From: Pelobacter seleniigenes DSM 18267
Lineage (GTDB): Bacteria > Desulfobacterota > Desulfuromonadia > Desulfuromonadales > Geopsychrobacteraceae
Length of the DNA stretch: 64,000 bases
Direction of reading: 5' to 3'
NCBI RefSeq assembly: GCF_000711225.1
Contig: NZ_JOMG01000002.1
Coordinates: forward strand, 1,934,501-1,998,500
This document shows positions 31,693 to 44,224 of this stretch, piece after piece (position 1 is the first letter of the stretch; each line of letters begins with the position of its first letter). Both the position numbers and the translations under genes were made by a program. Below the pieces are notes generated by a model that saw only the letters and a list, made by a program, of their open reading frames with translations, searched no databases and was not told the DNA's origin.

Positions 31693-32402
31693 TCGAACAG
31701 GCATTGCGGCTGGCGACCTGGAATATTCATATGGGGATCGGCCGGGATGGTACGCGCGACCTGCAACGCACGGCAGGGGTCATCTCGCGAATGAAGGTCG
31801 ATCTGATCGGTTTGCAGGAGGTGGACAATCACTCTCGTGCAGCGGGCGACGACCTTGATCTGCTGGGATCATTGACCGGTTTTACGGTGATTCCCGGACC
31901 GACCATGTTGAAAGAAACAGGGGATTACGGCAACGCCCTGCTCACCAAGCTGCCGCTTCTCGATGTCCGGCGCTATGATATCAGTTATCGGGATTATGAA
32001 CCGCGTGGTCTGCTGCTGGCCGACCTCGACTGGCAGGGAGAACGGGTGCGCGCAGCAGTGACCCACCTCGGCCTGCGGCCAGCGGAGCGGCGCTATCAGG
32101 TTAAAAAGGTGATAACCCATTTGTCCGGATCGGAAACCACACCATTGTTCCTCATGGGCGATTTCAATGAGTGGTTGTTGTGGGGGCGGCCGCTACGTTG
32201 GCTGCAACGGCATTTCGGCCGGCTGCGCTCACCGGCCACCTTCCCGGCACGCTGGCCGTTGCTCTGTCTGGATCAGATTCTGGCCGAACCGCGGCACCGG
32301 TTGCATGCCAAGCAGGTCTGCCGTGATTCCCAGGCCGCGCTGGCCTCGGATCATTTACCGCTGCAGGCCTGTTTTGCGCGGGGCGCAAAACGGTCTGTTT
32401 GA
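31689..32402 (+). CDS. endonuclease/exonuclease/phosphatase family protein (YbhP-like)
   Basis: A 237-aa EEP-fold metal-dependent hydrolase: LATWNIHMG (Asn), LIGLQEVD (catalytic Glu), THLGL, FLMGDFNEW (Asp-Asn) and the final SDHLPL His. No signal peptide. Coupled by ATGA to the PLD-VTT gene, it mirrors the E. coli ybhP-clsB order, so it probably acts on a lipid head group or lipid-derived phosphate (inference). Its substrate is unknown. Confidence 0.83.
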   Translation: MIEQALRLATWNIHMGIGRDGTRDLQRTAGVISRMKVDLIGLQEVDNHSRAAGDDLDLLGSLTGFTVIPGPTMLKETGDYGNALLTKLPLLDVRRYDISYRDYEPRGLLLADLDWQGERVRAAVTHLGLRPAERRYQVKKVITHLSGSETTPLFLMGDFNEWLLWGRPLRWLQRHFGRLRSPATFPARWPLLCLDQILAEPRHRLHAKQVCRDSQAALASDHLPLQACFARGAKRSV

Positions 32403-32422
32403 ATTGCCGGGTGGGGATTGGC

Positions 32423-32446
32423 AAAGGCCCGCCCCGGGCGCTTTTT
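32423..32446 (+). terminator. probable intrinsic terminator after the EEP gene
   Basis: A GC-rich hairpin (AAAGGCCCG and CGGGCGCTTT around CCC) runs into T5. One bulge in the stem lowers confidence. Confidence 0.45.
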
Positions 32447-32533
32447 ATCGGCAAAAGCGTTTCGGGCCGGGCCTTTTGTGCAGGAAAGAGAGCCGCCGGC
32501 AGGTTGTTCTCCTACCGCCAGCCAGGGTGTGAG

Positions 32534-33487
32534 CTATTTTTCCCAGAGCGACTCCCAGCTGTATGCGCTGCCGGGGAGGGTCCAGGCGTTGCCGGTGTAG
32601 TAGCGCCGGTTGCGGTCGAGCTTGGCGATGCGCGCCATGTCGTCCTGGGTCAATACCACTTGCGGGGCGGCCAGGTTCTGCTTGAGGCGTTCCGGATTGA
32701 CTGATTTGGGGATGACGATGGCACCCATGTCCATGGCCCAGCGGATCAGTACCTGGGCTGGCGATACCTGGTGTTTTTCCGCAATCTCAATAATTGTCGG
32801 TTCTTTCATCAGGACCGGCTCGTCGGCTTCCTTGATCCGGGCCGGTCGGTCCGGTGAACCCAGGGGCGAGTACGCGGTCAGCAGGATGCCGTTTTCCTTA
32901 CAGAACGCGAACAGTTCCGGTTGCTGCAGGTAGGGGTGGATTTCGACCTGATTGATTTCCGGTTTCAGGGTGGCTTTGGTGAGCAGATCCTGCAGTTTCG
33001 GGATATTGAAGTTGGAGACGCCCAGATGGCGGCAAAGACCGGCCTCAACCAGTTTTTCCATAGCCTGCCAAGTGCTGGCGAGAGGGATCTCGTCCAGGGA
33101 AATCAGATCTTCGGCGGCAGCGGGGAACGACAGTCCCTTTTTAATGGCGACCGGCCAGTGGATGAGGTAGAGGTCAAGGTAATCCAGCTGCAGATTTTTG
33201 AGGGTGGTCTCCAGGGCCGGGCGGACATCTTCCGGGGCGTGAGCATTGTTCCACAGCTTGGAGGTGATCCACATCTCTTCGCGGCTGACAATCCCTTCTG
33301 CAAAGGCCTCGCTCAGGGCCTTGCCGACCTCCGCTTCATTACCGTAAATATGCGCACAGTCGATATGCCGGTAGCCGAGCCGAATGGCTTCTTTGACCGC
33401 GCCGTAGACTTCGTTGGGGGCTGATTTCCAGGTGCCGAGGCCTAGCGCGGGAATGCGATCGCCGTTTGTAAATTCAAGTGCTTCCAT
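32534..33487 (-). CDS. aldo/keto reductase
   Basis: A 317-aa NADPH-dependent oxidoreductase of the AKR superfamily. The catalytic tetrad is visible: Asp in HIDCAHIYG, Tyr in the same motif, Lys in ITSKLWN and His in YLIHWP. The C-terminal cofactor segment is VIPKSVNPERLKQN. Family members reduce sugar and other aldehydes or ketones. It lies upstream on the edge of the sugar-acid island and shares its strand with the IclR gene (87 bp apart), so it may use a sugar-acid substrate (inference). Confidence 0.9.
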   Translation of the reverse strand: MEALEFTNGDRIPALGLGTWKSAPNEVYGAVKEAIRLGYRHIDCAHIYGNEAEVGKALSEAFAEGIVSREEMWITSKLWNNAHAPEDVRPALETTLKNLQLDYLDLYLIHWPVAIKKGLSFPAAAEDLISLDEIPLASTWQAMEKLVEAGLCRHLGVSNFNIPKLQDLLTKATLKPEINQVEIHPYLQQPELFAFCKENGILLTAYSPLGSPDRPARIKEADEPVLMKEPTIIEIAEKHQVSPAQVLIRWAMDMGAIVIPKSVNPERLKQNLAAPQVVLTQDDMARIAKLDRNRRYYTGNAWTLPGSAYSWESLWEK

Positions 33488-33573
33488 GCATTGTCCTCCA
33501 TGGGGAAGTGGATCGGATTGAGCGCGATCCAGGTGGTGACTTCAGGATAAAGGCAGTGTTTTCGGTCCGGTGT

Positions 33574-34356
33574 TCAGGAGGCGGCCAGCTGTCTGATCTT
33601 GTTTTTTGTACAGCCCATTTTTACGGAAATGGTCGCGGCCGCTTTGACAATCAGTTTAGCATAATTCTTCCAGGTCAATTCCGGATTGACCTGGATATCC
33701 CAGACAACGCTGATCGCGGCAATAACCCGGTCGCGATAATCGAAGATCGGCGCACCGATACAGCGGGTGCCGATTTCTCGTTCTTCATCGTCCATGGCCC
33801 AACCGCGTTCGCGGGTCTGCCTGATTTCCGCCATCAGCGCATCGATGGTAGGCAGGGTTTTGGCGGTCAAGCGGGGCAGGTTCCGCTCCGGATAGAGTTC
33901 TTCAATCTCCCGGTCGCTGCAGCCGGAGAGCATGGCCTTGCCCAGGGAGGTTGCATAAAGGGGAAGACGTTTGCCGATGATGGTGTAGCGACGCAGGCTG
34001 TTGTAGGCTTCGGCTTTGTCGATGTAGACCACCTCGGTCCCATCCATGATCGCCAGAAACACCGTCTGTCCGGTCGCTCTTGCCAGTTCATTGAGAAACG
34101 GGCTGGCTTCGGTCTTCAATTCCAGGCTGTTCAGGTAGAGGCTGGCCAACTCGACAAAGCCCAGCCCCAGTTTATAATTGCCGGACTCGGCTTCCTGTTC
34201 GACATAGCCGCGGTTGCGCAGGGACGCCAGTAACCGGTGGACCGTGCTTTTATGCAGGTCCAGACGGCGACCGATTTCGGTCATGGGGATGCTGCGGGAT
34301 TCCCTGGAAAGAAGCTCGATGATATCGAACGCACGGTCAATGGATTGAACGCTCAT
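33574..34356 (-). CDS. IclR-family transcriptional regulator
   Basis: A 260-aa regulator: N-terminal winged HTH (about 1-70; TEIGRRLDLHKSTVHRLLASL is the recognition region) and a C-terminal effector domain (about 80-250) with the conserved DEEREIGTRCIGAPIF segment. Members such as KdgR repress sugar-acid catabolism and release DNA on binding an intermediate such as KDG. Its position beside kduI and the four shared 17-bp boxes make it the likely local regulator of this island. Whether it represses or activates is not known; box placement over -10 elements suggests repression. Confidence 0.9.
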   Translation of the reverse strand: MSVQSIDRAFDIIELLSRESRSIPMTEIGRRLDLHKSTVHRLLASLRNRGYVEQEAESGNYKLGLGFVELASLYLNSLELKTEASPFLNELARATGQTVFLAIMDGTEVVYIDKAEAYNSLRRYTIIGKRLPLYATSLGKAMLSGCSDREIEELYPERNLPRLTAKTLPTIDALMAEIRQTRERGWAMDDEEREIGTRCIGAPIFDYRDRVIAAISVVWDIQVNPELTWKNYAKLIVKAAATISVKMGCTKNKIRQLAAS

Positions 34357-34405
34357 ATCTGGTTACCCTTTACTTTGATCTAACGCTGTTTGTGTATGAC
34401 CGACA

Positions 34406-34434
34406 AGAATCTCATCTGGGGTTTCTCTTGTCAA
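34406..34434 (-). promoter_or_regulatory. promoter of the iclR-type gene
   Basis: On the minus strand TTGACA (34429-34434), 17-bp spacer, GATTCT (34406-34411), about 50 nt from the start codon. No 17-bp box is seen here, so autoregulation by that motif is not supported. Confidence 0.5.
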
Positions 34435-34647
34435 CCGCGGTTCGCTGGCCGTTATTCCCGTCTGGAAAAGGCTTTTCCTGCTTCGGTCGTTTAAAATTAC
34501 CCCCAATTTCGGAGCGCTGGTCGTATCGCTTGAACAGAAGGCTGGTTTTCCTGCCCGTTTCAGGCAAGCAGGTTGCTGAGTTCATGCCGTTTCTTGAGGG
34601 GCCATGTACCGCCCGGCACAAGCGCAAACCGTCCCGGGCCGTTCAGA

Positions 34648-35478
34648 TCAGCGCAAGTCTTTCATGGCCACATGGTCCATGTCATCAAACAGCTGGTTTT
34701 CTCCGGCCATACCCCAGATAAAAGTATAATTGGCGGTGCCGACCCCGGAATGGATCGACCAGGAAGGGGAGATGACCGCTTCTTCATTGCGCATGATAAC
34801 ATGACGGGTTTCATCGGGCGGACCCATCAGATGAAATACGGCCTGTTCGGCGTTCATTTCAAAATAGAAGTAGGCCTCCATGCGCCGTTCATGGGTGTGG
34901 GTCGGCATGGTATTCCAGACGCTGCCGGTCTCCAGTGAGGTCATGCCCATGACCAGTTGGCAGCTTTTGATACCAGCGGGGTGAATATATTTGCGAATTG
35001 TTCTGCGGTTGCCGGTGGCCGCCTCGCCCAACTGAACCGGGCTTGCATCGGCAAACCGGGCCAGGGTGGTGGGGTAGGTGGCGTGAGCGGGAACCGAGTT
35101 GAAGTAGAACTTAGCGGGTTGTTCGGCTGAAGTGCTGGCGAAGACAATCTCCTTGGCTCCCATGCCGATATAGAGACCGTCTTTGGGAGCAATGGCGAAC
35201 TTTTCCCCATCTACGGAAATAACGCCTGGGCCGCCGACGTTGATGACCCCCAGCTCTCTGCGCTGCAGGAAAAAGTCGCTGCCGATGATTTTTTGATCAA
35301 CCTCCAGGGGCAGGGGGGTGATCGGGCAGGCGCCGCCGATAATCAGCCGGTCATTGAAGCTGTAGACCAGTTTGAGCTGGTCGGGCAGGAACAGATTTTT
35401 GACAAGAAAGTGCTCGCGTAGCGTTGCCGTGTCCATTGTCTTGGCCTGTTCCGGATGGACCGCGTATCTGATCTCCAT
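34648..35478 (-). CDS. kduI: 5-keto-4-deoxyuronate isomerase KduI
   Basis: A 276-aa cupin-fold zinc isomerase. The metal motif HTHERRMEAYFYF (HxHxxxxE) near residue 195 and the C-terminal His in SWSIHSGVG are present. KduI converts 4-deoxy-L-threo-5-hexosulose uronate, from pectin or other unsaturated uronides, to the 2,5-diketo form used by KduD; it also acts on hexuronates in some bacteria. The start at 35478 follows AGGAGG; the longer frame is unlikely, since KduI is normally 278 aa. A 17-bp box covers its promoter at 35676. Confidence 0.95.
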   Translation of the reverse strand: MEIRYAVHPEQAKTMDTATLREHFLVKNLFLPDQLKLVYSFNDRLIIGGACPITPLPLEVDQKIIGSDFFLQRRELGVINVGGPGVISVDGEKFAIAPKDGLYIGMGAKEIVFASTSAEQPAKFYFNSVPAHATYPTTLARFADASPVQLGEAATGNRRTIRKYIHPAGIKSCQLVMGMTSLETGSVWNTMPTHTHERRMEAYFYFEMNAEQAVFHLMGPPDETRHVIMRNEEAVISPSWSIHSGVGTANYTFIWGMAGENQLFDDMDHVAMKDLR

Positions 35479-35675
35479 AATGATGAATCCTCCTGCTGAA
35501 AGATGAAGCTGATGATCAATAAGAGCCGCAGGGTGTGCCCGGCCGGTTTGCGCTTCGCACAATGGTCATGGGTACAAGGCTGCGGCAGTCATTGCCCGGT
35601 TGAAGTGTGTCATGGCCCTGAATCAGTGGAGCCTCTTCCGCAATATGAACACATTTTTTTAATATTTGGCAACCA

Positions 35676-35692
35676 GTTTTATATTATGAAAC
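35676..35692. promoter_or_regulatory. 17-bp operator-like box A (kduI promoter)
   Basis: GTTTTATATTATGAAAC, a pseudo-palindrome. On the minus strand a TTGACA (35708-35713) lies exactly 15 bp upstream of it, so the box covers the -10 region of the kduI promoter. Proposed binding site of the nearby IclR-type regulator. Confidence 0.6.
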
Positions 35693-35852
35693 TTTTGGTA
35701 TGGTGATTGTCAAGAAAAACCGTTGCAAGTGGAAGCGTTTAAAAATCAGGATATTGGCGAGCGGAAAGATTCCATATCATTCAAAATTTACTGTGTATAG
35801 AATCTATTGAAATGGCGGGCTCCTCAAGCCAGTCGTGAAATGGAATTAGAGG

Positions 35853-35890
35853 TTGACAAAAATGCGCAACATAGTTTTATATTGCGGAAC
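35853..35890 (+). promoter_or_regulatory. promoter with 17-bp box B (Ldh2/TRAP operon)
   Basis: TTGACA at 35853-35858, then 15 bp, then GTTTTATATTGCGGAAC (35874-35890), which contains the likely -10 (TTATAT). The spacing is identical to box A on the other strand. The remaining 250 bp before the Ldh2 start codon is an untranslated leader with no gene that I can support. Confidence 0.6.
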
Positions 35891-36143
35891 ATATGGCTTA
35901 TCAAAATAAACCTGATTCCTGAGCCGGGATTGGCTTGAATCTTCACCCTGTTGTCATCCGGAAACTTCAGTTGACAACTCACCAGGCGAACGGACCGTTT
36001 TGGGTTGTAGTAAGGAAATCAAGGGCTTGTGCGGAGGCTTCGTTACGCCGTAGAGGCAAGTCCGCCGATTGACGCTGCTGCAACGGAAAAGAGCCGTTTC
36101 CGGACGAAAACCAGATTGCCCCGTCGGCAAAAGGATATGTGTG

Positions 36144-37172
36144 ATGGCTGAATCGAATAAGGAAGTTTACGTCAAAGCAGAAGAACTCCTTTCCCTGGTG
36201 TCGACAAAGTTGGCTAATGCTGGTCTGAACAGGAAACATGCCGAGTTGACGGCGGATGTTCTGGTCAATGCTGATTTACGAGGTGTCCATTCGCACGGCG
36301 TTATTCGCACAGAACATTATGTGCGCAGGCTGAAAGCCGGTAGCCTGAATGGCAACCCTGATTTTAAATTCAAAACCTTGCGCAGCGGTTGCGGGCTTTT
36401 TGATGCTGACGACGGCATGGGACATGTGGCCACCAACGAGGCAATGACCTATGCCATCAATATGGCGAAGGAGTCAGGTATCGCCATGGTTGGTGTTGAG
36501 AACAGCAGTCATTGCGGGGCATTGTCTTATTTTGTCACCCAGGCGATCGAAAACAGGATGATCGGTATCGCCATCGTTCAGACCGACAAATGTGTCAATC
36601 CTTTTGGTGGCGCCCAGCCTTTTTTTGGCACCAACCCTATCGCCTTTGGCTTCCCCTGTGAAAAAAATCCTCCGGTCATTCTGGATATGGCGACGAGTAA
36701 CGTCGCCTATGGTAAAGTTCTGCATGCCCGAGAAAAGAACGTCTCTATTCCCGAGACGTGGGGGCTCGACCAGGACGGTGCGCCGACGACCGACCCACAT
36801 CTGGTGCGTGGACTGACCCCTCTTGGAGGCTACAAAGGGTATGGCATCGGCATGGTCGTGGATGTCCTCACCGGCATCTTGCTTGGGGCTCAGTTCGGCC
36901 CTCACATTGCGGCGATGTATGACGGATATGAACAGAAACGAAAACTGGCAAGTACGGTGATCGCGATTGATCCTGCCACATATATATCGGCAGATCACTT
37001 TATGAGCCAGATGGATGCCATGGTTGATCAGCTTCATGCTCAACCGACCGGACCCGGGTTTGAAAAAGTCCTCGTCCCGGGAGATATCGAGCTGGCACTT
37101 GAAGAACGCTACCGGAAAGATGGCGTCCCTGTTGTTGGCAGTATATATCAGTATCTGAAAGGAGATCAGTAG
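36144..37172 (+). CDS. malate/lactate/diketogulonate dehydrogenase (Ldh2 family)
   Basis: A 342-aa NAD(P)-dependent 2-oxoacid reductase of the Ldh2/YlbC/YiaK family, unrelated in fold to classical Rossmann dehydrogenases. Landmarks are RGVHSHGVIRTEHYVRRL, VGVENSSHCGALSYF with the catalytic His, and FFGTNPIAFGFP. Known relatives reduce 2,3-diketo-L-gulonate, malate, lactate or ureidoglycolate; the island context favours a sugar-derived keto acid. AAAGGAT about 7 nt upstream selects 36144 rather than 36069. First gene of the TRAP operon. Confidence 0.88.
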   Translation: MAESNKEVYVKAEELLSLVSTKLANAGLNRKHAELTADVLVNADLRGVHSHGVIRTEHYVRRLKAGSLNGNPDFKFKTLRSGCGLFDADDGMGHVATNEAMTYAINMAKESGIAMVGVENSSHCGALSYFVTQAIENRMIGIAIVQTDKCVNPFGGAQPFFGTNPIAFGFPCEKNPPVILDMATSNVAYGKVLHAREKNVSIPETWGLDQDGAPTTDPHLVRGLTPLGGYKGYGIGMVVDVLTGILLGAQFGPHIAAMYDGYEQKRKLASTVIAIDPATYISADHFMSQMDAMVDQLHAQPTGPGFEKVLVPGDIELALEERYRKDGVPVVGSIYQYLKGDQ

Positions 37173-37282
37173 GCACTGAACACATAGTCATTATCTCTGA
37201 CCAGAGATTTGCATTGTCAATGTCGTAATAAAGGCTCATGGATTTCAAGATGGAATAGAGCAGAATAAAGGAGTTGTATGAG

Positions 37283-37777
37283 ATGCAAAATGTTGTAGCA
37301 ATGTGGGACAGACTTAATGGGATGATTAAATGGGTGGAAAAATGGGCTCTGATTATCCTGTTTGTCGGAATGCTTTTATGTGGAGGCCTGCAGATATTCG
37401 CGCGGTTTATCCTTCATGCGCCGATTTCCTGGTCGGAAGAGTTGCTGACCTATGCGTTTGTCTGGTCCAGCTTTCTTGGTGCCAGCCTTGCCGTAGATCA
37501 GCTGGCTCATTTCAATGTTGATATTTTTATCCATCATTTCCCGCCGAAATTTGCCAAGATTGTTCTTTACCTCGTCTGGTTGACGATGCTCTGGTTTACC
37601 GCCTTTCTGACTTATAAAGGCACTATTCTCGCTCAGCTTAATATTGTTCAGACCATGGATGTCCTGCCCCTCTCAATGGTATGGGCGTATGCGTCAATAC
37701 CGGTCTCTGCAGCGTTTATGTTTGTTCATACTGCGGATAAGGTTTTGACCGGCTCATTCCAGCCTGTCAGCGAATAA
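37283..37777 (+). CDS. dctQ: TRAP transporter small permease DctQ
   Basis: A 164-aa membrane protein with four TM helices and the DctQ hallmark ARFILHAPISWSEELLTYAFVW. It forms the TRAP membrane complex with DctM. The ATG at 37283 is 9 nt from AAAGGAG; the ORF also has a TTG at 37274. It lies 13 bp from dctM. Confidence 0.9.
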   Translation: MQNVVAMWDRLNGMIKWVEKWALIILFVGMLLCGGLQIFARFILHAPISWSEELLTYAFVWSSFLGASLAVDQLAHFNVDIFIHHFPPKFAKIVLYLVWLTMLWFTAFLTYKGTILAQLNIVQTMDVLPLSMVWAYASIPVSAAFMFVHTADKVLTGSFQPVSE

Positions 37778-37790
37778 GGGAGGATGATCA

Positions 37791-39077
37791 ATGGCGACAA
37801 CATTATTCTTATTTTTTGTGATCTTTCTGATTGTTCAGATGCCAGTGTCTTTTTGCCTGGTTATCTCAACGGTGCTGGCCATGTTTATCGCCAGCGATAT
37901 CGATTCCATTGCGATCATTCTGAAGCTGTTCCGTTCTTGTGGTAACTATCATTTGATTGCCATTCCCTTCTTTATCCTGGCCGGCGGTTTTATGGAGTCA
38001 GGCGGGATTTCGCGCCGCCTGGTGACCTTCTCATCCGCACTGATCGGCCATGTTCGTGGCGGCCTTGCCAATACCAGTGTCGCGGCGGCGATGTTCTTTG
38101 CCGGGTTGTCCGGGGCCGCCGCCGCAGATACCGCAGCGGTCGGCAGCCTGTTGATTCCGGCCATGAAGCGCAAAGGCTATGGCTCGGATATGGCGACCTC
38201 GGTTATGGCGACTGCCGGCTCTATCGGGATCATTATCCCGCCATCGATTCCAATGATTATTCTTGGGGTGACTGCCGGGGTTTCCATCGGCGGACTGTTC
38301 ATGGGCGGGGTTATCCCGGGCATCCTCATGGGCGGTGGCCTGATGATCGTTAATTACATTTACTGCAAGGTGCGCAAAATCGAGCCCGAAGAGCGGGTTT
38401 CCTTCAAGGAGCTGGTGCGTTCCTGCATGGATTCGATTCTGGCTATTCTGACCGTGGTTATCATTGTCGGCGGGATTGTCGGCGGGATGTTTACCGCGAC
38501 GGAAGCGTCGGTCGTTGCCGCTCTTTACTCCTTTGTCGTCGGCTTCTTTATCTATAAAGAACTGAGCTTCAAAGATCTGCCCGGAATTTTTGTGAAATCG
38601 GCAGTTACTACTGGCGTGGTGGTCTTCACCGTGGCCGCTGCTTCAGGTTTCGGCTGGATTCTGACCGCTGAAAACATCCCGACCGAGATCGCATCATTTG
38701 TTGTCGGCCTGTCTGACTCCAAGTGGGTTATCATGCTGATGCTGAATGCGCTGTTCCTGGTTATGGGGACCTTTCTTGACCCTTCAGCAATCATCATCAT
38801 TCTGGTGCCGATTGTCTGGCCGATCGTCATGAAAATAGGTATTGAGCCGATCCACTTTGGTGTGGCGATGATCGTCAATATGGCGATCGGACAGTGTACT
38901 CCGCCTGTCGGTATTGCTCTGTTTGTGGCATCGGGAATCTCCGGAATAACTTTAAACCAGGTCATGGGTTGTTACTGGAAGTACCTGTTGGCCATGGTTG
39001 TTGTACTGCTGCTCGTTATCTTCTTTCCGTTTTTCTCCACATGGATACCAACCATGCTGGGCTACATCCAACCCTGA
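37791..39077 (+). CDS. dctM: TRAP transporter large permease DctM
   Basis: A 428-aa membrane protein with about 12 helices and signatures AIPFFILAGGFMESGGISRR, AATAGSIGI-type repeats (VMATAGSIGIIIPPSIPMI) and QCTPPVGIALF. It is the ion-coupled transport subunit that takes substrate from DctP. The standard DctQ-DctM-DctP order is kept. Confidence 0.95.
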   Translation: MATTLFLFFVIFLIVQMPVSFCLVISTVLAMFIASDIDSIAIILKLFRSCGNYHLIAIPFFILAGGFMESGGISRRLVTFSSALIGHVRGGLANTSVAAAMFFAGLSGAAAADTAAVGSLLIPAMKRKGYGSDMATSVMATAGSIGIIIPPSIPMIILGVTAGVSIGGLFMGGVIPGILMGGGLMIVNYIYCKVRKIEPEERVSFKELVRSCMDSILAILTVVIIVGGIVGGMFTATEASVVAALYSFVVGFFIYKELSFKDLPGIFVKSAVTTGVVVFTVAAASGFGWILTAENIPTEIASFVVGLSDSKWVIMLMLNALFLVMGTFLDPSAIIIILVPIVWPIVMKIGIEPIHFGVAMIVNMAIGQCTPPVGIALFVASGISGITLNQVMGCYWKYLLAMVVVLLLVIFFPFFSTWIPTMLGYIQP

Positions 39078-39092
39078 TAAGGAGGCTTGACC

Positions 39093-40067
39093 ATGAAAAG
39101 ATTGATTGTGTTGACCGTTCTGCTTTTGATGGTAGCAAGTACCGGCTTTGCTGCGCCGATCGTACTGCGTGCTACCAACACCCTTGGCGAAGATCATCCG
39201 ATGACCATGGCTCTGCGCTATATGAGCACAGAAATTGCCAAAAGAACCAATGGTGAAGTCAAACTCGATGTCTATCCCAACAGCCAGTTGGGCGGCAACA
39301 AGGAAATGGTTGAAGGCGTTGTTTTGGGGACCATCGATATCGCCCAGCAGTTTGCCGGGACTTTCTCCTCTTATGTGCCTGAAATGGACATCCTCGCTCT
39401 GCCTTTCCTGTTCAAGTCAGAGGACGCCCTGTTTGATTCTCTGCAAGGAGAAGCTGGTGACATCCTGGCCAAGTCCCTGGAGAAAAAAGGGTTCATTCCG
39501 TTGACCTACTTCTACGGCGGCGCCCGGAGCTTCATTAATAACGTGCGTCCGATCAACACTCCGGAAGACCTCAAAGGCCTGAAAATCCGCGTTATCGGTG
39601 TTAAAACCGTTATCGAAGCCATTAACGCTCTTGGTGCTATCGCCACCCCGATGAGCCAATCCGAAGTTTACTCGGCACTGCAGCAGGGCGTTCTGGACGG
39701 CTGGGAAAACAGCCCGGTGACCCTGTACTCCCTCAAATTGTATGAGCAGTCCAAATACTTCTCCTACTCCAAACACCTGATGACTCCTGACCTGGTCGCT
39801 TTGAGCAAAGTCACCGCCAAGAAGCTGGGTGAGAAAAACCTTGCTATCCTGAAGGAAGTTGCTCGGGATGCCAGCAAGCTGGAGCGCAAGCTCTGGGCTG
39901 AAAACGAAGGTAAGATGGTCAAGGAAATGACTGATAAAGGATGGTGTCAGTTCAATGATATCGCCGATCTCACTCCTTTTATTGAAAAGACCAAATACCT
40001 GCAGGATGAATACGAAGCAAAATACCACAATGGTTTGATCAAGATGATTCTGAGTAACCAGAAGTAA
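39093..40067 (+). CDS. dctP: TRAP transporter substrate-binding protein DctP
   Basis: A 324-aa periplasmic protein with a signal peptide (MKRLIVLTVLLLMVASTGFA) and the DctP fold. The carboxylate-binding Arg is in the family segment GLKIRVIG (about residue 166). SYVPEMDILALPFLF and YSALQQGVLDGWENSP are typical of the uronate/aldonate-like branch, but the ligand is inferred from context only. GGAGG 7 nt upstream selects 39093. A terminator follows. Confidence 0.93.
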   Translation: MKRLIVLTVLLLMVASTGFAAPIVLRATNTLGEDHPMTMALRYMSTEIAKRTNGEVKLDVYPNSQLGGNKEMVEGVVLGTIDIAQQFAGTFSSYVPEMDILALPFLFKSEDALFDSLQGEAGDILAKSLEKKGFIPLTYFYGGARSFINNVRPINTPEDLKGLKIRVIGVKTVIEAINALGAIATPMSQSEVYSALQQGVLDGWENSPVTLYSLKLYEQSKYFSYSKHLMTPDLVALSKVTAKKLGEKNLAILKEVARDASKLERKLWAENEGKMVKEMTDKGWCQFNDIADLTPFIEKTKYLQDEYEAKYHNGLIKMILSNQK

Positions 40068-40117
40068 GACCTTGAATATGTCGATCGATATAAGCGGTTG
40101 ACGACTTGTTCTGCCCA

Positions 40118-40152
40118 GGGGGCCGCTGAATTACGGCGGCTCCCTGTTTTTT
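40118..40152 (+). terminator. intrinsic terminator after dctP
   Basis: A nine-pair stem GGGGGCCGC (40118-40126) with GCGGCTCCC (40136-40144), one G-T pair, then TGTTTTTTC. It ends the TRAP operon or attenuates reading into the alcohol dehydrogenase gene. Confidence 0.8.
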
Positions 40153-40225
40153 CATCCCCAATTTGGCCAGCTGGACGGCTGTCAATACTGTGGGGAGTTC
40201 ATGCCGCCGTAGAAGGATAAATCAT

Positions 40226-41251
40226 ATGGAAACAATGAAAACACTGACCTGTGAAACACCAGGTAAATTTGTCATGAGCGATCAGCCGGTTCCTGTCCCC
40301 AAAGAGGGAGAGGCCCTGGTGCGCATCACCCGTGTCGGTATTTGTGGAACTGATCTTCACGCTTTTGCCGGGAATCAGCCCTTTTTCAACTACCCCAGGG
40401 TCCTCGGGCATGAACTGGCCGCTATCGTCGAGCAACTACCCGAGGGGACGACCGGGCTGGCGGTCGGTGATCAGGTCTGTATCGTTCCGGTGATCGGCTG
40501 TGGAACCTGTATCGCCTGTCGCAACGGCAAGCCCAACTGCTGCGTCAACATCAACCTGCGCGGTGTCCATAGCGACGGCGGTATGTGCGAATACATGGCC
40601 GTGCCGGTCGAGAATCTGATCAAAAACAGCAACCTGACCCCGGATCAGTTGGCCTTGGTGGAATGCTGCGCGATCGGCGCCCATGCGGTTCGGCGGGCAC
40701 AGATCCAGGCGGGTGAAAAGGTGCTGGTGGTCGGTGCCGGTCCCATCGGCCTGGGACTGATGCAGTTTGCCCGCGCTGTCGGCGGCGATGTCATCGTGAT
40801 GGATGTTTCCGCCACGCGTCTGGCCGTGGCCAAAAATGACCTGGGTTTCACCCAGACCATCCAGATCGGTGTCGATGATCCCAAGGCCCGTCTGGCGGAA
40901 TTGACCAATGGCGATTCCCCCACGGTTATCTTCGACTGTACCGGCAACCCCAAGGCGATGATGGACGGCTTCCTGTTGCTCGCCCATACCGGCCGCTATG
41001 TTCTGGTCAGCCTGGTGACCGCGGATATCACCTTTCCCGATCCGGAATTCCATAAACGCGAAACCACCCTGTTGTCCAGCCGCAATGCCAACAAGGAAGA
41101 CTTTGAGTGGGTCATGGAGTGCATGGAAGCAGGGAAGGTCAATGTCGGGCCGATGGTGACGCATCGCTGTCAATTTGACGAAACCCTGGAGCAGTTCGCC
41201 AGCTGGACCAAGCCGGAAACCGGTGTGGTCAAAGCGGTTATCGAAATCTGA
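40226..41251 (+). CDS. zinc-dependent alcohol/polyol dehydrogenase
   Basis: A 341-aa medium-chain dehydrogenase. Catalytic-zinc residues are in GICGTDLHAF and LGHE, the structural-zinc Cys cluster in GCGTCIACRNGKPNCC, and the Rossmann motif in VVGAGPIGLG. Relatives oxidise sorbitol, L-threonine, galactitol phosphate or L-gulonate. With a UxuB-like SDR next door, oxidation of L-gulonate to D-fructuronate is an attractive guess (inference). AGAAGGAT before the ATG at 40226 supports this start. It is separated from the TRAP genes by a terminator. Confidence 0.88.
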   Translation: METMKTLTCETPGKFVMSDQPVPVPKEGEALVRITRVGICGTDLHAFAGNQPFFNYPRVLGHELAAIVEQLPEGTTGLAVGDQVCIVPVIGCGTCIACRNGKPNCCVNINLRGVHSDGGMCEYMAVPVENLIKNSNLTPDQLALVECCAIGAHAVRRAQIQAGEKVLVVGAGPIGLGLMQFARAVGGDVIVMDVSATRLAVAKNDLGFTQTIQIGVDDPKARLAELTNGDSPTVIFDCTGNPKAMMDGFLLLAHTGRYVLVSLVTADITFPDPEFHKRETTLLSSRNANKEDFEWVMECMEAGKVNVGPMVTHRCQFDETLEQFASWTKPETGVVKAVIEI

Positions 41252-41253
41252 AC

Positions 41254-41288
41254 AAAAAAGGGGCGACTTTGGCAGTCGCCCCTTTTTT
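41254..41288. terminator. bidirectional intrinsic terminator
   Basis: A perfect 15-bp stem (41254-41268 with 41274-41288), 5-nt loop, A6 and T6 flanks, between the convergent alcohol dehydrogenase and SDR genes. Confidence 0.93.
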
Positions 41289-41340
41289 ATTGAATCACCC
41301 TTGCTCTTTCGCCCTTGTCCCCGGGCTCAGCTGGCCGGGT

Positions 41341-42156
41341 TCAGATATTGTGGGCCAGGTAGCCGCCGTCGACCGGAATGGAAACCCCGGTGACAAAGCC
41401 GGCGGCCTTGTTGCTGGCGAGGAACAGGGTTGCCCCGGCCAACTCCTCGACATCGCCAAAGCGGCCGTAGGGGGTGTGGTTGATCACCGCTTTGCCGCGG
41501 GCGGTGTATTCACCGGTTTCCTGGTCGATGAGCAGGGCTTTGTTCTGTTTGCCGATGAAAAAACCCGGGGCAATGGCGTTGACCCGGATGCCATGCTGGG
41601 CGAATTCATTGGCGGTGGCCACGGTCAGGTTGAGGGTTGCGGCCTTCGCTGCATCATAAGCCCAAACCCCGGAGAGGGGATTGTAAGAGGCCATGGAGGT
41701 GAGGTTGATGATCGCGCCACGGATGCCGGCTTTGATCCAGTAATCGGCCAGGACCTTGGTCGGGATCATCAGCCCGGCCACCAGGTTCATGTGGAGGACT
41801 TTTTCAAAGGTCGCCAGGTCGGCGTCGACAAAGGCCGATTTGCCCAGGTTGCCGCCGACTCCGTTGATCAGAATATCGACTTTGCCGAAGCAGGCGATGG
41901 CATTCTTCAGGGCCTTGGCCACGGCTTTTTCATCACCGGTATCGCAGCGTTCGCCGCGCAGTTCGCCAGTAGGCTGTTCGTTGCTGCTGAGTTTTGCGAC
42001 AGCCTCGTCAATCGATTCCTGGCTCCGGCTCCAGATCATGACATTGGCTCCGGCCTTCAGCAGTGCGGCGGACATGACGGTGCCGATAGCTCCGGCGCCT
42101 CCTGTGACGATTGCGGTCTGACCCTTCAGGCTGAACATCTCTTCCAGGTATTGCAT
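41341..42156 (-). CDS. SDR oxidoreductase, probable fructuronate reductase (UxuB-like)
   Basis: A 271-aa short-chain dehydrogenase: TGGAGAIGTVM cofactor loop, NGVGG segment, Ser in NLTSMASYNP, YDAAK active-site Tyr/Lys and PGFFIGKQN in the substrate loop. The last element and the overall pattern resemble the SDR-type D-mannonate oxidoreductases (Bacillus YjmF), which reduce fructuronate to mannonate. GGAGG 5 nt before 42156 selects this start over 42168. It is transcribed away from kduD, with two operator-like boxes between them. Confidence 0.82.
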   Translation of the reverse strand: MQYLEEMFSLKGQTAIVTGGAGAIGTVMSAALLKAGANVMIWSRSQESIDEAVAKLSSNEQPTGELRGERCDTGDEKAVAKALKNAIACFGKVDILINGVGGNLGKSAFVDADLATFEKVLHMNLVAGLMIPTKVLADYWIKAGIRGAIINLTSMASYNPLSGVWAYDAAKAATLNLTVATANEFAQHGIRVNAIAPGFFIGKQNKALLIDQETGEYTARGKAVINHTPYGRFGDVEELAGATLFLASNKAAGFVTGVSIPVDGGYLAHNI

Positions 42157-42205
42157 GCGATCCTCCATGGTGGTGAGAGTAAATAGTTTTAAAATACGAT
42201 AGATA

Positions 42206-42222
42206 GTTTTGTATCATGAAAC
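42206..42222. promoter_or_regulatory. 17-bp operator-like box C
   Basis: GTTTTGTATCATGAAAC, 50 bp upstream of the UxuB-like gene. On the minus strand a TTGACG followed by TACAAA (17-bp spacer) overlaps it, so the box covers spacer and -10. Confidence 0.55.
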
Positions 42223-42381
42223 TAAATCATCGTCAAAAATAATCCTTTTACCGATTCCAATGGTTTTGTCAGGACAAAGAGCTTTTACTTAACTTATTGG
42301 TATATAGATTTTAATCTCTAGATCTTTGATTCGATTGTGATAGAATTTCCGAAGTTTTAAGTTTCATAAAATCTGTCATGT

Positions 42382-42398
42382 GTTTTGTATTATGAAGC
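42382..42398. promoter_or_regulatory. 17-bp operator-like box D
   Basis: GTTTTGTATTATGAAGC, 38 bp upstream of the kduD ATG. A more degenerate partial copy, GTTTCATAAAAT, starts at 42361, 21 bp away. Proposed IclR-type site controlling kduD. Confidence 0.5.
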
Positions 42399-42435
42399 TT
42401 GCGTCATGGTTCCATTTTCCTGAAGGAGTTATGCT

Positions 42436-43206
42436 ATGAGTATTGTTGAAAAATTTTCCCTGGTCGGGAAAACCGCACTGGTCACCGGTTGCAAGCGTGG
42501 GATCGGCAAGGCCATGGCCGTTGGTCTGGCTGAAGCCGGCGCGGATATTATCGGCGTCAGTGCCTCTCTGGAAGAGACCGGCAGCGAGGTGGAAAAAGCG
42601 GTCCAGGCCTGTGGGCGTAAATTCGCCGGCTATCGCTGTGATTTCAGCGACCGCAGCGCATTGCGCGGTTTTATCGCCCGGGTCACCAAGGAGCATCCGG
42701 TCATCGATATCCTGGTCAACAATGCCGGCACCATCAAGCGCGCCCCGGCTGCAGAACATCCCGACGAAATCTGGGATGAAGTGATCGAGGTCAACCTGAG
42801 TTCGCAGTTTATCCTCTCCAAGGAGATCGGGCGCGGCATGCTCGAACGCGGCTCAGGCAAGGTTATTTTTACCGCCTCCCTGCTCACCTTCCAGGGTGGG
42901 ATTACCGTGCCCGGCTATGCCGCCAGCAAAGGCGGTATCGGCCAGCTGACCAAAGCCCTGGCCAATGAATGGGCCGGACGCGGGGTTAACGTCAATGCGG
43001 TTGCCCCCGGTTATATTAAGACCGACAACACCCAGGCCCTGCAGGACGACCCGGCCCGCAGCAAGGCGATCCTGGAACGGATTCCGGCCGGACGCTGGGG
43101 AGTCCCGGAAGATTTTGCCGGGCCGGTGGTGTTCCTGGCCTCGGCGGCCGCGGATTACATGCACGGTGAAGTCATGGTTGTGGACGGCGGCTGGATGGGG
43201 CGCTGA
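42436..43206 (+). CDS. kduD: 2-dehydro-3-deoxy-D-gluconate 5-dehydrogenase KduD
   Basis: A 256-aa SDR: TGCKRGIGKAMAVGL cofactor motif, NNAGTIKRAPA, catalytic Ser in FTASLLTFQGG, YAASKGG and PGYIKTDNT, which is typical of KduD. It interconverts the 2,5-diketo product of KduI and 2-keto-3-deoxygluconate. AAGGAG precedes the ATG. KDG kinase and aldolase genes are not in this island as seen here. Confidence 0.93.
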   Translation: MSIVEKFSLVGKTALVTGCKRGIGKAMAVGLAEAGADIIGVSASLEETGSEVEKAVQACGRKFAGYRCDFSDRSALRGFIARVTKEHPVIDILVNNAGTIKRAPAAEHPDEIWDEVIEVNLSSQFILSKEIGRGMLERGSGKVIFTASLLTFQGGITVPGYAASKGGIGQLTKALANEWAGRGVNVNAVAPGYIKTDNTQALQDDPARSKAILERIPAGRWGVPEDFAGPVVFLASAAADYMHGEVMVVDGGWMGR

Positions 43207-43223
43207 GCAGAGCGCAAAGCGGG

Positions 43224-43275
43224 ACGTGAAGTGTGCAGCGGCGGATTTTTTAGCGCTCCACGCTTCACGTTTTCT
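43224..43275 (+). terminator. hairpin terminator after kduD
   Basis: ACGTGAAGTGTG (43224-43235) pairs with CACGCTTCACGT (43259-43270) with one G-T pair; the loop is long (23 nt) and a TTTTCTTTTCC tract follows. Confidence 0.65.
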
Positions 43276-43372
43276 TTTCCTGGACGGTTCAGTTATGCTT
43301 TAGCCGGAGGATGAAAAGTTTAAAGGAAAATTTTCTCAGCAGGGCAGGCTGCTCAGTGTTTTGGATGGGTTT

Positions 43373-44224
43373 ATGCTAAAGCCGTTTTTCCAACATTTTT
43401 CCGCGCCGGGGCTGGTCTGTGCCCATCGCGGAGCCCGTTCCATCGCCCCGGAAAATACCTCGCTGGCCATGGTCAAGGCCCAGGCCTGTGAGGCCGACCT
43501 CTGGGAGACCGACGTCCAATTGACCGCCGATGGCGTGGCCGTCCTGTTTCATGACGATACCCTGGTGCGCACCACCGATATCCTGGACAGAGCCGCCTTC
43601 AGTGGCAAAGCAGGACTGCGGTTGACCGAATTCAGCTGGGCCGAGTTGGCCGCTCTGGATGCCGGCTCCTGGTTTATTCACACCGATCCGTATGGCACCA
43701 TCCAAAGTGGCGAGGTTCCTCAGGAAGCTCTGCCGCTGATCGCGCAGCAGCGTATTTTACGGCTGGAAGAAGCCCTGCGCTATTGCCGCCAGCATGTTTT
43801 TCCGGTCAACCTGGAACTCAAGGATCAGCGCGGCACCGCGGCCGATGGCCGGATTGTGGCAACGGTGCTTGACTTGATCCGCCAGACCGGGACCGAGGAG
43901 CTGGCACTGATCTCTTCCTTCAATCATGATTACCTGCGCCAGATCCGTCAGCAGGCTCCCGAACTGGCGATCGCGGCCCTGGTGGAAGGGGCTCATCCGC
44001 CGGAGCTGGTGAACTATTTAAGGACGCTTGGTTGTGATGCCTACCATCCTGATCAGCGTTTGATCGATGCCGACTTTGTGCGTCAGCTGAGCGCAGCCGG
44101 TATGCCGGTTAACCCCTGGACAGTCAATGATGAGGCCCAGGCCCTGGAGTTGCTGGACGCCGGAGCTTTTTTCATCTGCACTGACTGGCCGCAACGGTTG
44201 CGCAAAGCGCGTCATTCTGCTTGA
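43373..44224 (+). CDS. glycerophosphodiester phosphodiesterase
   Basis: A 283-aa TIM-barrel enzyme (GDPD/UgpQ family) that splits glycerophosphodiesters to glycerol 3-phosphate and an alcohol. The catalytic residues are AHRGARSIAPENT (His-Arg, Glu-Asn) and WETDVQLTADGVAVLFHDD (Glu, Asp, His). No signal peptide, so cytosolic. The start is either 43361 or 43373; the family N-terminus fits both. Confidence 0.9.
   Translation: MLKPFFQHFSAPGLVCAHRGARSIAPENTSLAMVKAQACEADLWETDVQLTADGVAVLFHDDTLVRTTDILDRAAFSGKAGLRLTEFSWAELAALDAGSWFIHTDPYGTIQSGEVPQEALPLIAQQRILRLEEALRYCRQHVFPVNLELKDQRGTAADGRIVATVLDLIRQTGTEELALISSFNHDYLRQIRQQAPELAIAALVEGAHPPELVNYLRTLGCDAYHPDQRLIDADFVRQLSAAGMPVNPWTVNDEAQALELLDAGAFFICTDWPQRLRKARHSA

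Follow-up and report, generated by a model that had tools for sequence, protein, structure and literature searches.

The 64,000-nucleotide stretch analysed in the present study (the window) comes from Pelobacter seleniigenes DSM 18267 and holds an island of genes in the order aldo/keto reductase (AKR), iclR and kduI on the reverse strand, ldh2-dctQ-dctM-dctP and a zinc alcohol dehydrogenase gene on the forward strand, a short-chain dehydrogenase/reductase (SDR) gene on the reverse strand and a kduD-like SDR gene on the forward strand. Four 17-mers lie between these genes, and the original prediction, made from the sequence alone, had taken them as a shared pseudo-palindrome that defines a local IclR-type regulon and is restricted to the two divergent promoter regions of the island. 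All four were found, with identical letters, where they had been placed (starting at 35676, 35874, 42206 and 42382; Table 1), and the restriction also held, with W1 and W2 in the gap between kduI and ldh2 and W3 and W4 in the gap between the SDR gene and kduD, which has a GC content of 31%. On the evidence given below we consider it likely that the four palindromes are the operators of the island's own IclR-family protein, a predicted pathway-specific repressor whose three-box operators would lie on the core promoter.

Specificity of the palindrome in the window and the genome

The genome of P. seleniigenes (5,088,373 bases) was scanned with the pattern GTTTYRTANYRYGRARC, which covers all four sites, and four exact matches were obtained, all of them these sites; with one mismatch allowed there were seven further places, and the reversed control gave four. 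As GTTTYRTANYRYGRARC was derived from the sites themselves, this test is partly circular. We therefore also used the published consensus of the GTT-11-AAC subgroup of IclR-family group 1, a 17-bp palindrome GTTYCRYWWWRYGRAAC (GTTYCRYW3RYGRAAC; Suvorova and Gelfand 2021, PMC8222616), to which W1, W2, W3 and W4 have 1, 1, 2 and 2 mismatches respectively. With up to two mismatches this consensus found exactly the four sites in the window, compared with a shuffle mean of 1.01, and only 2 of 100 shuffles reached four places anywhere in the 64 kb. With up to one mismatch it found two places (shuffle mean 0.07; 0 of 100 shuffles), and at up to three mismatches the window total was ordinary (13 against a shuffle mean of 9.2). 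The genome-wide scan that had been suggested with the original prediction confined both the exact pattern and the matches to the consensus with up to one mismatch to the island, the latter being W1 and W2 in the kduI/ldh2 gap. The two gaps together (662+267 = 929 bp) hold four places with up to two mismatches against approximately 0.014 expected at the genome rate, by arithmetic from the genome count; it is the placing of the matches, not their number, that stands out.

We inspected the surroundings of four of the seven further one-mismatch GTTTYRTANYRYGRARC places (C4:643500, C2:623289, C1:271180 and C2:222190) and of C4:102927. These five were taken as chance because reading of the translations gave unrelated genes, i.e. 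triosephosphate isomerase and phosphoglycerate kinase, response regulators, ribosomal protein and GTPase genes, a sodium/solute symporter and NAD synthetase, and no uronate gene was seen. A motif search of three genomes returned five places beyond the 11 in the sites described in the present study, namely G000:C4:102927, two in G005 (contigs C187 and C236) and two in G006 (contigs C38 and C50), of which the C38 place was rejected as lying, by reading, among ribosomal protein genes.

Table 1 Predicted operators, promoter elements and genes of the island (positions in the window)
Feature	Position	Strand	Remarks
Aldo/keto reductase	32534..33487	-	Adjoins iclR and kduI in both relatives too
IclR-family regulator, 260 aa	33574..34356	-	HTH_IclR + IclR_C; predicted binder
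kduI, 5-dehydro-4-deoxy-D-glucuronate isomerase	34648..35481	-	442.6 against curated cut-off 250, passed
Operator W1	35676..35692	-	GTTTTATATTATGAAAC, on - strand GTTTCATAATATAAAAC; kduI promoter side; 7/8 positions symmetric; 194 bp before kduI ATG; 1 mismatch to group 1 consensus
-35-like TTGACA	35708..35713	-	15 bp from W1; predicted kduI promoter
-35-like TTGACA	35853..35858	+	15 bp from W2; predicted ldh2-TRAP promoter
Third box GCGCAAC of W2	35864..35870	+	20-bp offset; between predicted -35 and -10
Operator W2	35874..35890	+	GTTTTATATTGCGGAAC; ldh2-TRAP promoter; likely -10 (TATATT) at palindrome positions 5-10; ldh2 ATG 253 bp downstream; 1 mismatch
Ldh2-family dehydrogenase	36144..37172	+	First gene of TRAP operon
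TRAP transporter DctQ-DctM-DctP	37274..40067	+	
SDR	41341..42168	-	Best model D-mannonate oxidoreductase PRK08277, 249.7 bits, under cut-off 281
Weak third box ACGATAG of W3	42196..42202	+	2/7 mismatches; 20-bp offset
Operator W3	42206..42222	-	GTTTTGTATCATGAAAC; SDR promoter side; 37 bp before SDR ATG; differs from consensus by 2 mismatches; lacks TTGACA at 15 bp
Operator W4	42382..42398	+	GTTTTGTATTATGAAGC; kduD promoter; 37 bp before ATG; 2 mismatches; lacks both TTGACA at 15 bp and a third box at 20 bp
kduD-like SDR	42436..43206	+	TIGR01832 329.7 bits, slightly under cut-off 338.85

The regulator carries both domains of the family (PF09339, 65.1 bits, cut-off 22; PF01614, 177.7 bits, cut-off 24). 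Between dctP and the zinc alcohol dehydrogenase gene there is a strong terminator-like hairpin with six T (40116-40146), so that the latter gene may fall outside the ldh2 transcript. The Ldh2-family protein passed one ureidoglycolate dehydrogenase model (385.1 against 356) and failed the other (377.2 against 496.2); judged from its neighbours, a sugar-acid substrate seems likelier. The 253 bp from W2 to the ldh2 ATG (35891-36143) would be a long leader if the promoter is assigned correctly. No riboswitch is claimed for it, because Rfam gave no match in window positions 32000-44000 and the fold of the 256 nt upstream of the ldh2 ATG was little better than that of shuffles (z -0.77).

Regulator orthologues and sites in related genomes

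Regulator homologues were searched for in 136 genomes of the order, that of P. seleniigenes included. An IclR match at E <= 1e-40 was present in 127 of these, and a close orthologue (73-75% identity) in P. seleniigenes itself and in two of the 135 others (G005 and G006), the next best match having 39% identity. No close orthologue was found in the other 43 genomes of the same family that were searched, and its distribution is thus patchy. Both G005 and G006 keep the AKR-IclR-KduI adjacency. Two sites lie between kduI and a divergent SDR gene at each of the two loci, GTTCCACAATATAAAAC and GTTCCACGATATGAAAT at L042 and GTCCCACATTATAAAAC and GTTCCATAATATGAAAT at L043, and at L043 (G006) two more, GTTTCGTAATACAAAAC and GTTCTGCATTATGAAGT (3 mismatches), lie before kduD. 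The comparison with related genomes that had been proposed thus places sites before kduI in both holders of the orthologue and before kduD in one. In addition, operators of the same type, a pair 196 bp apart, occur on another contig of G006 (L098 7761-7973, G006:C95) before a second TRAP operon, the DctP of which is 35% identical to that of the window, indicating that the regulon in this genome extends outside the island. Downstream of the AKR gene, L042 and L043 share a sugar-acid block consisting, by reading of the translations, of a DUF1537-type kinase, a hydroxyacid dehydrogenase, an HpcH-type aldolase, KDPG aldolase and an aldehyde dehydrogenase, and none of its genes was seen among those of the island.

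Eleven distant loci with IclR relatives at 39-53% identity (L044-L054) were also examined. A place with at most one mismatch to the group 1 consensus was found at 8 of the 11, compared with a mean of 0.10 and a maximum of 3 in 200 shuffles; L045, L048 and L051 had no such place. At L044, the locus of the 53% relative from a metagenome-assembled genome of Actinomycetota, the gap upstream of kduI contains GTTCCACGAAGTGAAAC, and the perfect palindromes GTTCCGCAAAGCGGAAC and GTTTCATTATACGAAAC occur among the loci of the distant relatives. At L046, L050, L052 and L054 a second, weaker site lies 20-21 bp away, which is the known tandem spacing of the family. Near an IclR paralogue of 39% identity in G102, two perfect GTTTCATTATATGGAAC sites lie 77 bp apart (L017, 403 and 480). 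Several GTTTCGCATTGCAAAAC-like palindromes were also observed in G078 and G080, genomes of the same family without the close orthologue, and are probably operators of another IclR regulator.

Predicted promoter overlap, third box and paired layout

To this point the sites have been treated as palindromes, and their surroundings were compared by aligning 12 of them, four from the window (W), two from L042 (A), four from L043 (B) and two from L098 (C). Six of the 12 (W1, W2, A1, B1, B3 and C1) have a TTGACA hexamer, with one change allowed, whose end is exactly 15 bp away from the palindrome; of the other gaps between 5 and 30 bp, none is shared by more than two sites. The combined pattern TTGWCA-N15-GTTTYRTA has seven exact places in the three genomes, six of them aligned sites; the seventh (G006:C26:71242), with its poor right half, was put down to chance. 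In the six TTGACA-type sites, palindrome positions 5-10 match TATAAT at 5, 5, 5, 6, 4 and 5 of 6 positions, and, for promoters predicted in this way, the palindrome covers the likely -10 with a spacer of either 19 or 17 bp. In five of these sites, W1 being the exception, the asymmetric half GTTTTRTA (for GTTTCRTA) also provides the likely -10 (TATATT, TATAAT or TGTATT), and the sites would be only pseudo-palindromes because the deviating half has this double role.

Nine of the 12 sites have a third half-site (at most 2/7 mismatches) offset by exactly 20 bp, as do 7 of 10 when the orthologous B1 and B2 are omitted. Offsets of 25-70 bp averaged 1.35 of the 12 sites and never exceeded 4, and offsets of 17 and 21 bp gave four each. 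The original prediction can accordingly be refined, in that the sites appear to overlap promoters and are mostly three-box.

The sites of the three genomes also form six pairs, the starts of which are 198, 176, 193, 197, 189 and 196 bp apart. When five pairs (the orthologous B1/B2 being omitted) were placed at random in the gaps, a range as small as 22 bp arose in a fraction of 0.0002 of the trials, in a test that was post hoc and treated pairs within one genome as independent. Taking 10.5 bp per turn, the distances are not strictly in helical phase. For the G006 pairs before kduD and the second TRAP operon, the upstream neighbour is on the same strand by reading of long open reading frames, so that a divergent gene does not simply account for the second site. 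We tentatively suggest, with doubt outweighing confidence, that an IclR tetramer might tie together two operators approximately 190 bp apart, most of them three-box, and that this pair at a fixed distance, rather than one operator per gene, would be the unit wherever a promoter region is regulated, the non-divergent promoters of kduD and of the second TRAP operon in the relative among them. The sites show the recurring two-operator distance expected of loop-forming paired-operator repressors, in a post hoc comparison of three genomes, and among the open-licence papers listed none was, by its title and the start of its abstract, about an IclR loop. In G005 two palindromes with two mismatches each lie 209 bp apart (L100, 3141 and 3350; G005:C187) beside another IclR-type gene and, by reading, an acyl-CoA gene. 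This place is probably another regulator's operator, and it hints that paired operators may not be peculiar to the regulator studied here.

A predicted IclR repressor and its alternatives

The reading of the four sites as a local IclR-type regulon is supported, as they fit the group 1 consensus, are restricted to the island and recur before kduI where the close orthologue is present. In the mechanism that we propose from these sequence comparisons, the 17-bp palindrome would be occupied by an IclR dimer, with an additional protomer or dimer on the third half-site 20 bp (two helical turns) away at most sites. At the TTGACA-type promoters, both of which in the window are in the kduI/ldh2 gap, the bound protein would cover the -35/-10 spacer together with the likely -10 and so shut out RNA polymerase. 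All four transcripts would be repressed by the local IclR through such coverage of the core promoter, with release by a sugar-acid intermediate of the KduI/KduD route, possibly 2-keto-3-deoxygluconate (KDG) or a nearby ketouronate; KDG is our guess, by analogy with KdgR. The operator pairs at approximately 190 bp may allow one tetramer to hold both sites.

A number of observations weigh against this repressor model. The operator is absent before iclR itself, with no site of five or fewer mismatches in the kduI-iclR or iclR-AKR gaps, and iclR is perhaps read from the kduI promoter. Genome-wide, the consensus showed no clear excess over the reversed control with up to two mismatches (74 places against 62) and none with up to one (2 against 5). 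A -10 at palindrome positions 5-10 requires a 19-bp spacer, which is unusually long, the usual 17-bp spacer gives poor -10 hexamers (2-3 of 6), and a promoter scan with 16-18-bp spacers left these promoters unscored (5 found against 7.6 expected). W3 and W4 are without the TTGACA-N15 module, and W1, W4 and B4 are without a third box as defined above. Exact matches to the relaxed pattern GTTYYRYRNTRYRRAAC occur in 55 of the 136 genomes, of which 52 lack the close orthologue; such matches are as expected for other IclR regulators and chance, and the pattern alone is therefore no marker of this regulon. In the relatives, the divergent SDR beside kduI is not that of the window, having 30-31% identity to it and 35-38% to the window KduD; the G005 kduD (79%) has only a 3-mismatch place; and TRAP genes on contig C5 of G006, 76-90% like those of the window, have no place with up to three mismatches in a gap, nor does the stretch ahead of them (L122 6700-7300) have one with up to four. 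In addition, a first look at the P. seleniigenes genome gave 19 IclR-like candidates, two of them at E <= 1e-40, and another of these could bind.

Should the same regulator use the same sites for activation, or for both repression and activation, it would do so from sites immediately before a -35. The kduI-side site of both relatives does lie, as read by eye, 3 bp before a TTGTCA/TTGCCA that is itself 17 bp from TATATA, and PcaR is a case of activation and repression within the IclR family, according to a title cited in PMC8222616. However, 6 of the 12 sites, W1 and W2 among them, have the TTGACA-like -35 exactly 15 bp off with the palindrome over the likely -10, and we regard activation as unlikely. 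That another DNA-binding protein, either an IclR paralogue or a member of a different family, binds the motif and that the adjacency of iclR is coincidental seems more improbable still. One further candidate of the genome matches at E <= 1e-40 (35% identity), different IclR proteins have motifs with overlapping sequences, and a similar site pair lies beside another IclR-type gene in G005; nevertheless, the motif precedes kduI in the two genomes with the close orthologue and in the 53% relative, and no further regulator was seen among the ten island genes scanned. We attach the lowest probability of all, close to dismissal, to the view that the 17-mers are merely similar A/T-rich -10 sequences (TATATT/TATTAT) and no operators. 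Although half of each palindrome is -10-like and W3 and W4 lie in a gap of low GC, the outer GTT...AAC and the inner symmetry are not features of promoters, G006 keeps distal sites approximately 190 bp upstream without a divergent gene of >=90 aa behind them, and perfect palindromes exist at loci of distant IclR relatives.

Several known systems of the family resemble the proposed regulon in part. KduI and KduD are targets of KdgR of gammaproteobacteria, likewise an IclR-family protein, which controls genes for pectin and oligogalacturonate. The KdgR box is RWWGAAACGNCGTTTCAKKA (PMC8222616, Table 1), of the form GAAAC..GTTTC, whereas the window sites have the inverse half-site order, GTTTC..GAAAC. 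Nor is the island's regulator KdgR by its profile, scoring 187.6 bits with NF011671, under the curated cut-off of 275, and higher, 196.4, with the BhcR model (cut-off 350). A local GAAAC-NNN-GTTTT arises only through the third box, in the relatives. The yiaKLMNO operon of Escherichia coli, controlled by the IclR regulator PlaR (YiaJ), encodes an Ldh2-type dehydrogenase and a TRAP transporter, as does the island, and is not known to encode KduI or KduD. The PlaR box ATnTGAAACnnnGTTCAnTT, reported to overlap the yiaK promoter (PMC6958661), again has a half-site arrangement inverse to that of the window sites, and on these grounds both a KdgR box and a PlaR box were rejected for the latter.

By motif, and in its proposed mode of action, the system belongs with the GTT-11-AAC subgroup of group 1, having a regulator with HTH_IclR and IclR_C domains and sites with one or two mismatches to its consensus. 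According to the survey, genes for sugars and sugar acids are common in this subgroup, DctPQM is among the co-regulated transporters, and three-box sites as well as tandem sites at 18-22 bp are reported for the family (PMC8222616). The present sites differ in that the half-site with T for C also supplies the likely -10, and in that they form pairs 176-198 bp apart, a distance on which the accessible part of PMC8222616 is silent. Operators of the PcaU/PobR type likewise combine a palindrome with an additional half-site, which was shown to be required for PcaU (PMC8222616), but they have GTNCG-type boxes and serve aromatic catabolism.

None of the open-licence papers listed is, by its title, about this regulon, which we regard as a new one of the known GTT-11-AAC type. 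It provides a ketouronate (KduI/KduD) island with a proposed regulator, predicted operators and four target transcripts, in a host whose group has few members in the published survey, the Delta-Epsilonproteobacteria accounting for 1.36% of its GTT-11-AAC motifs (PMC8222616). The strict spacing of the -35 and the third box makes for a clear promoter model, and the paired layout raises the question of looping by IclR proteins. Such looping, if true, would be a long-range addition to a family whose descriptions centre on tandem sites at 20 bp.

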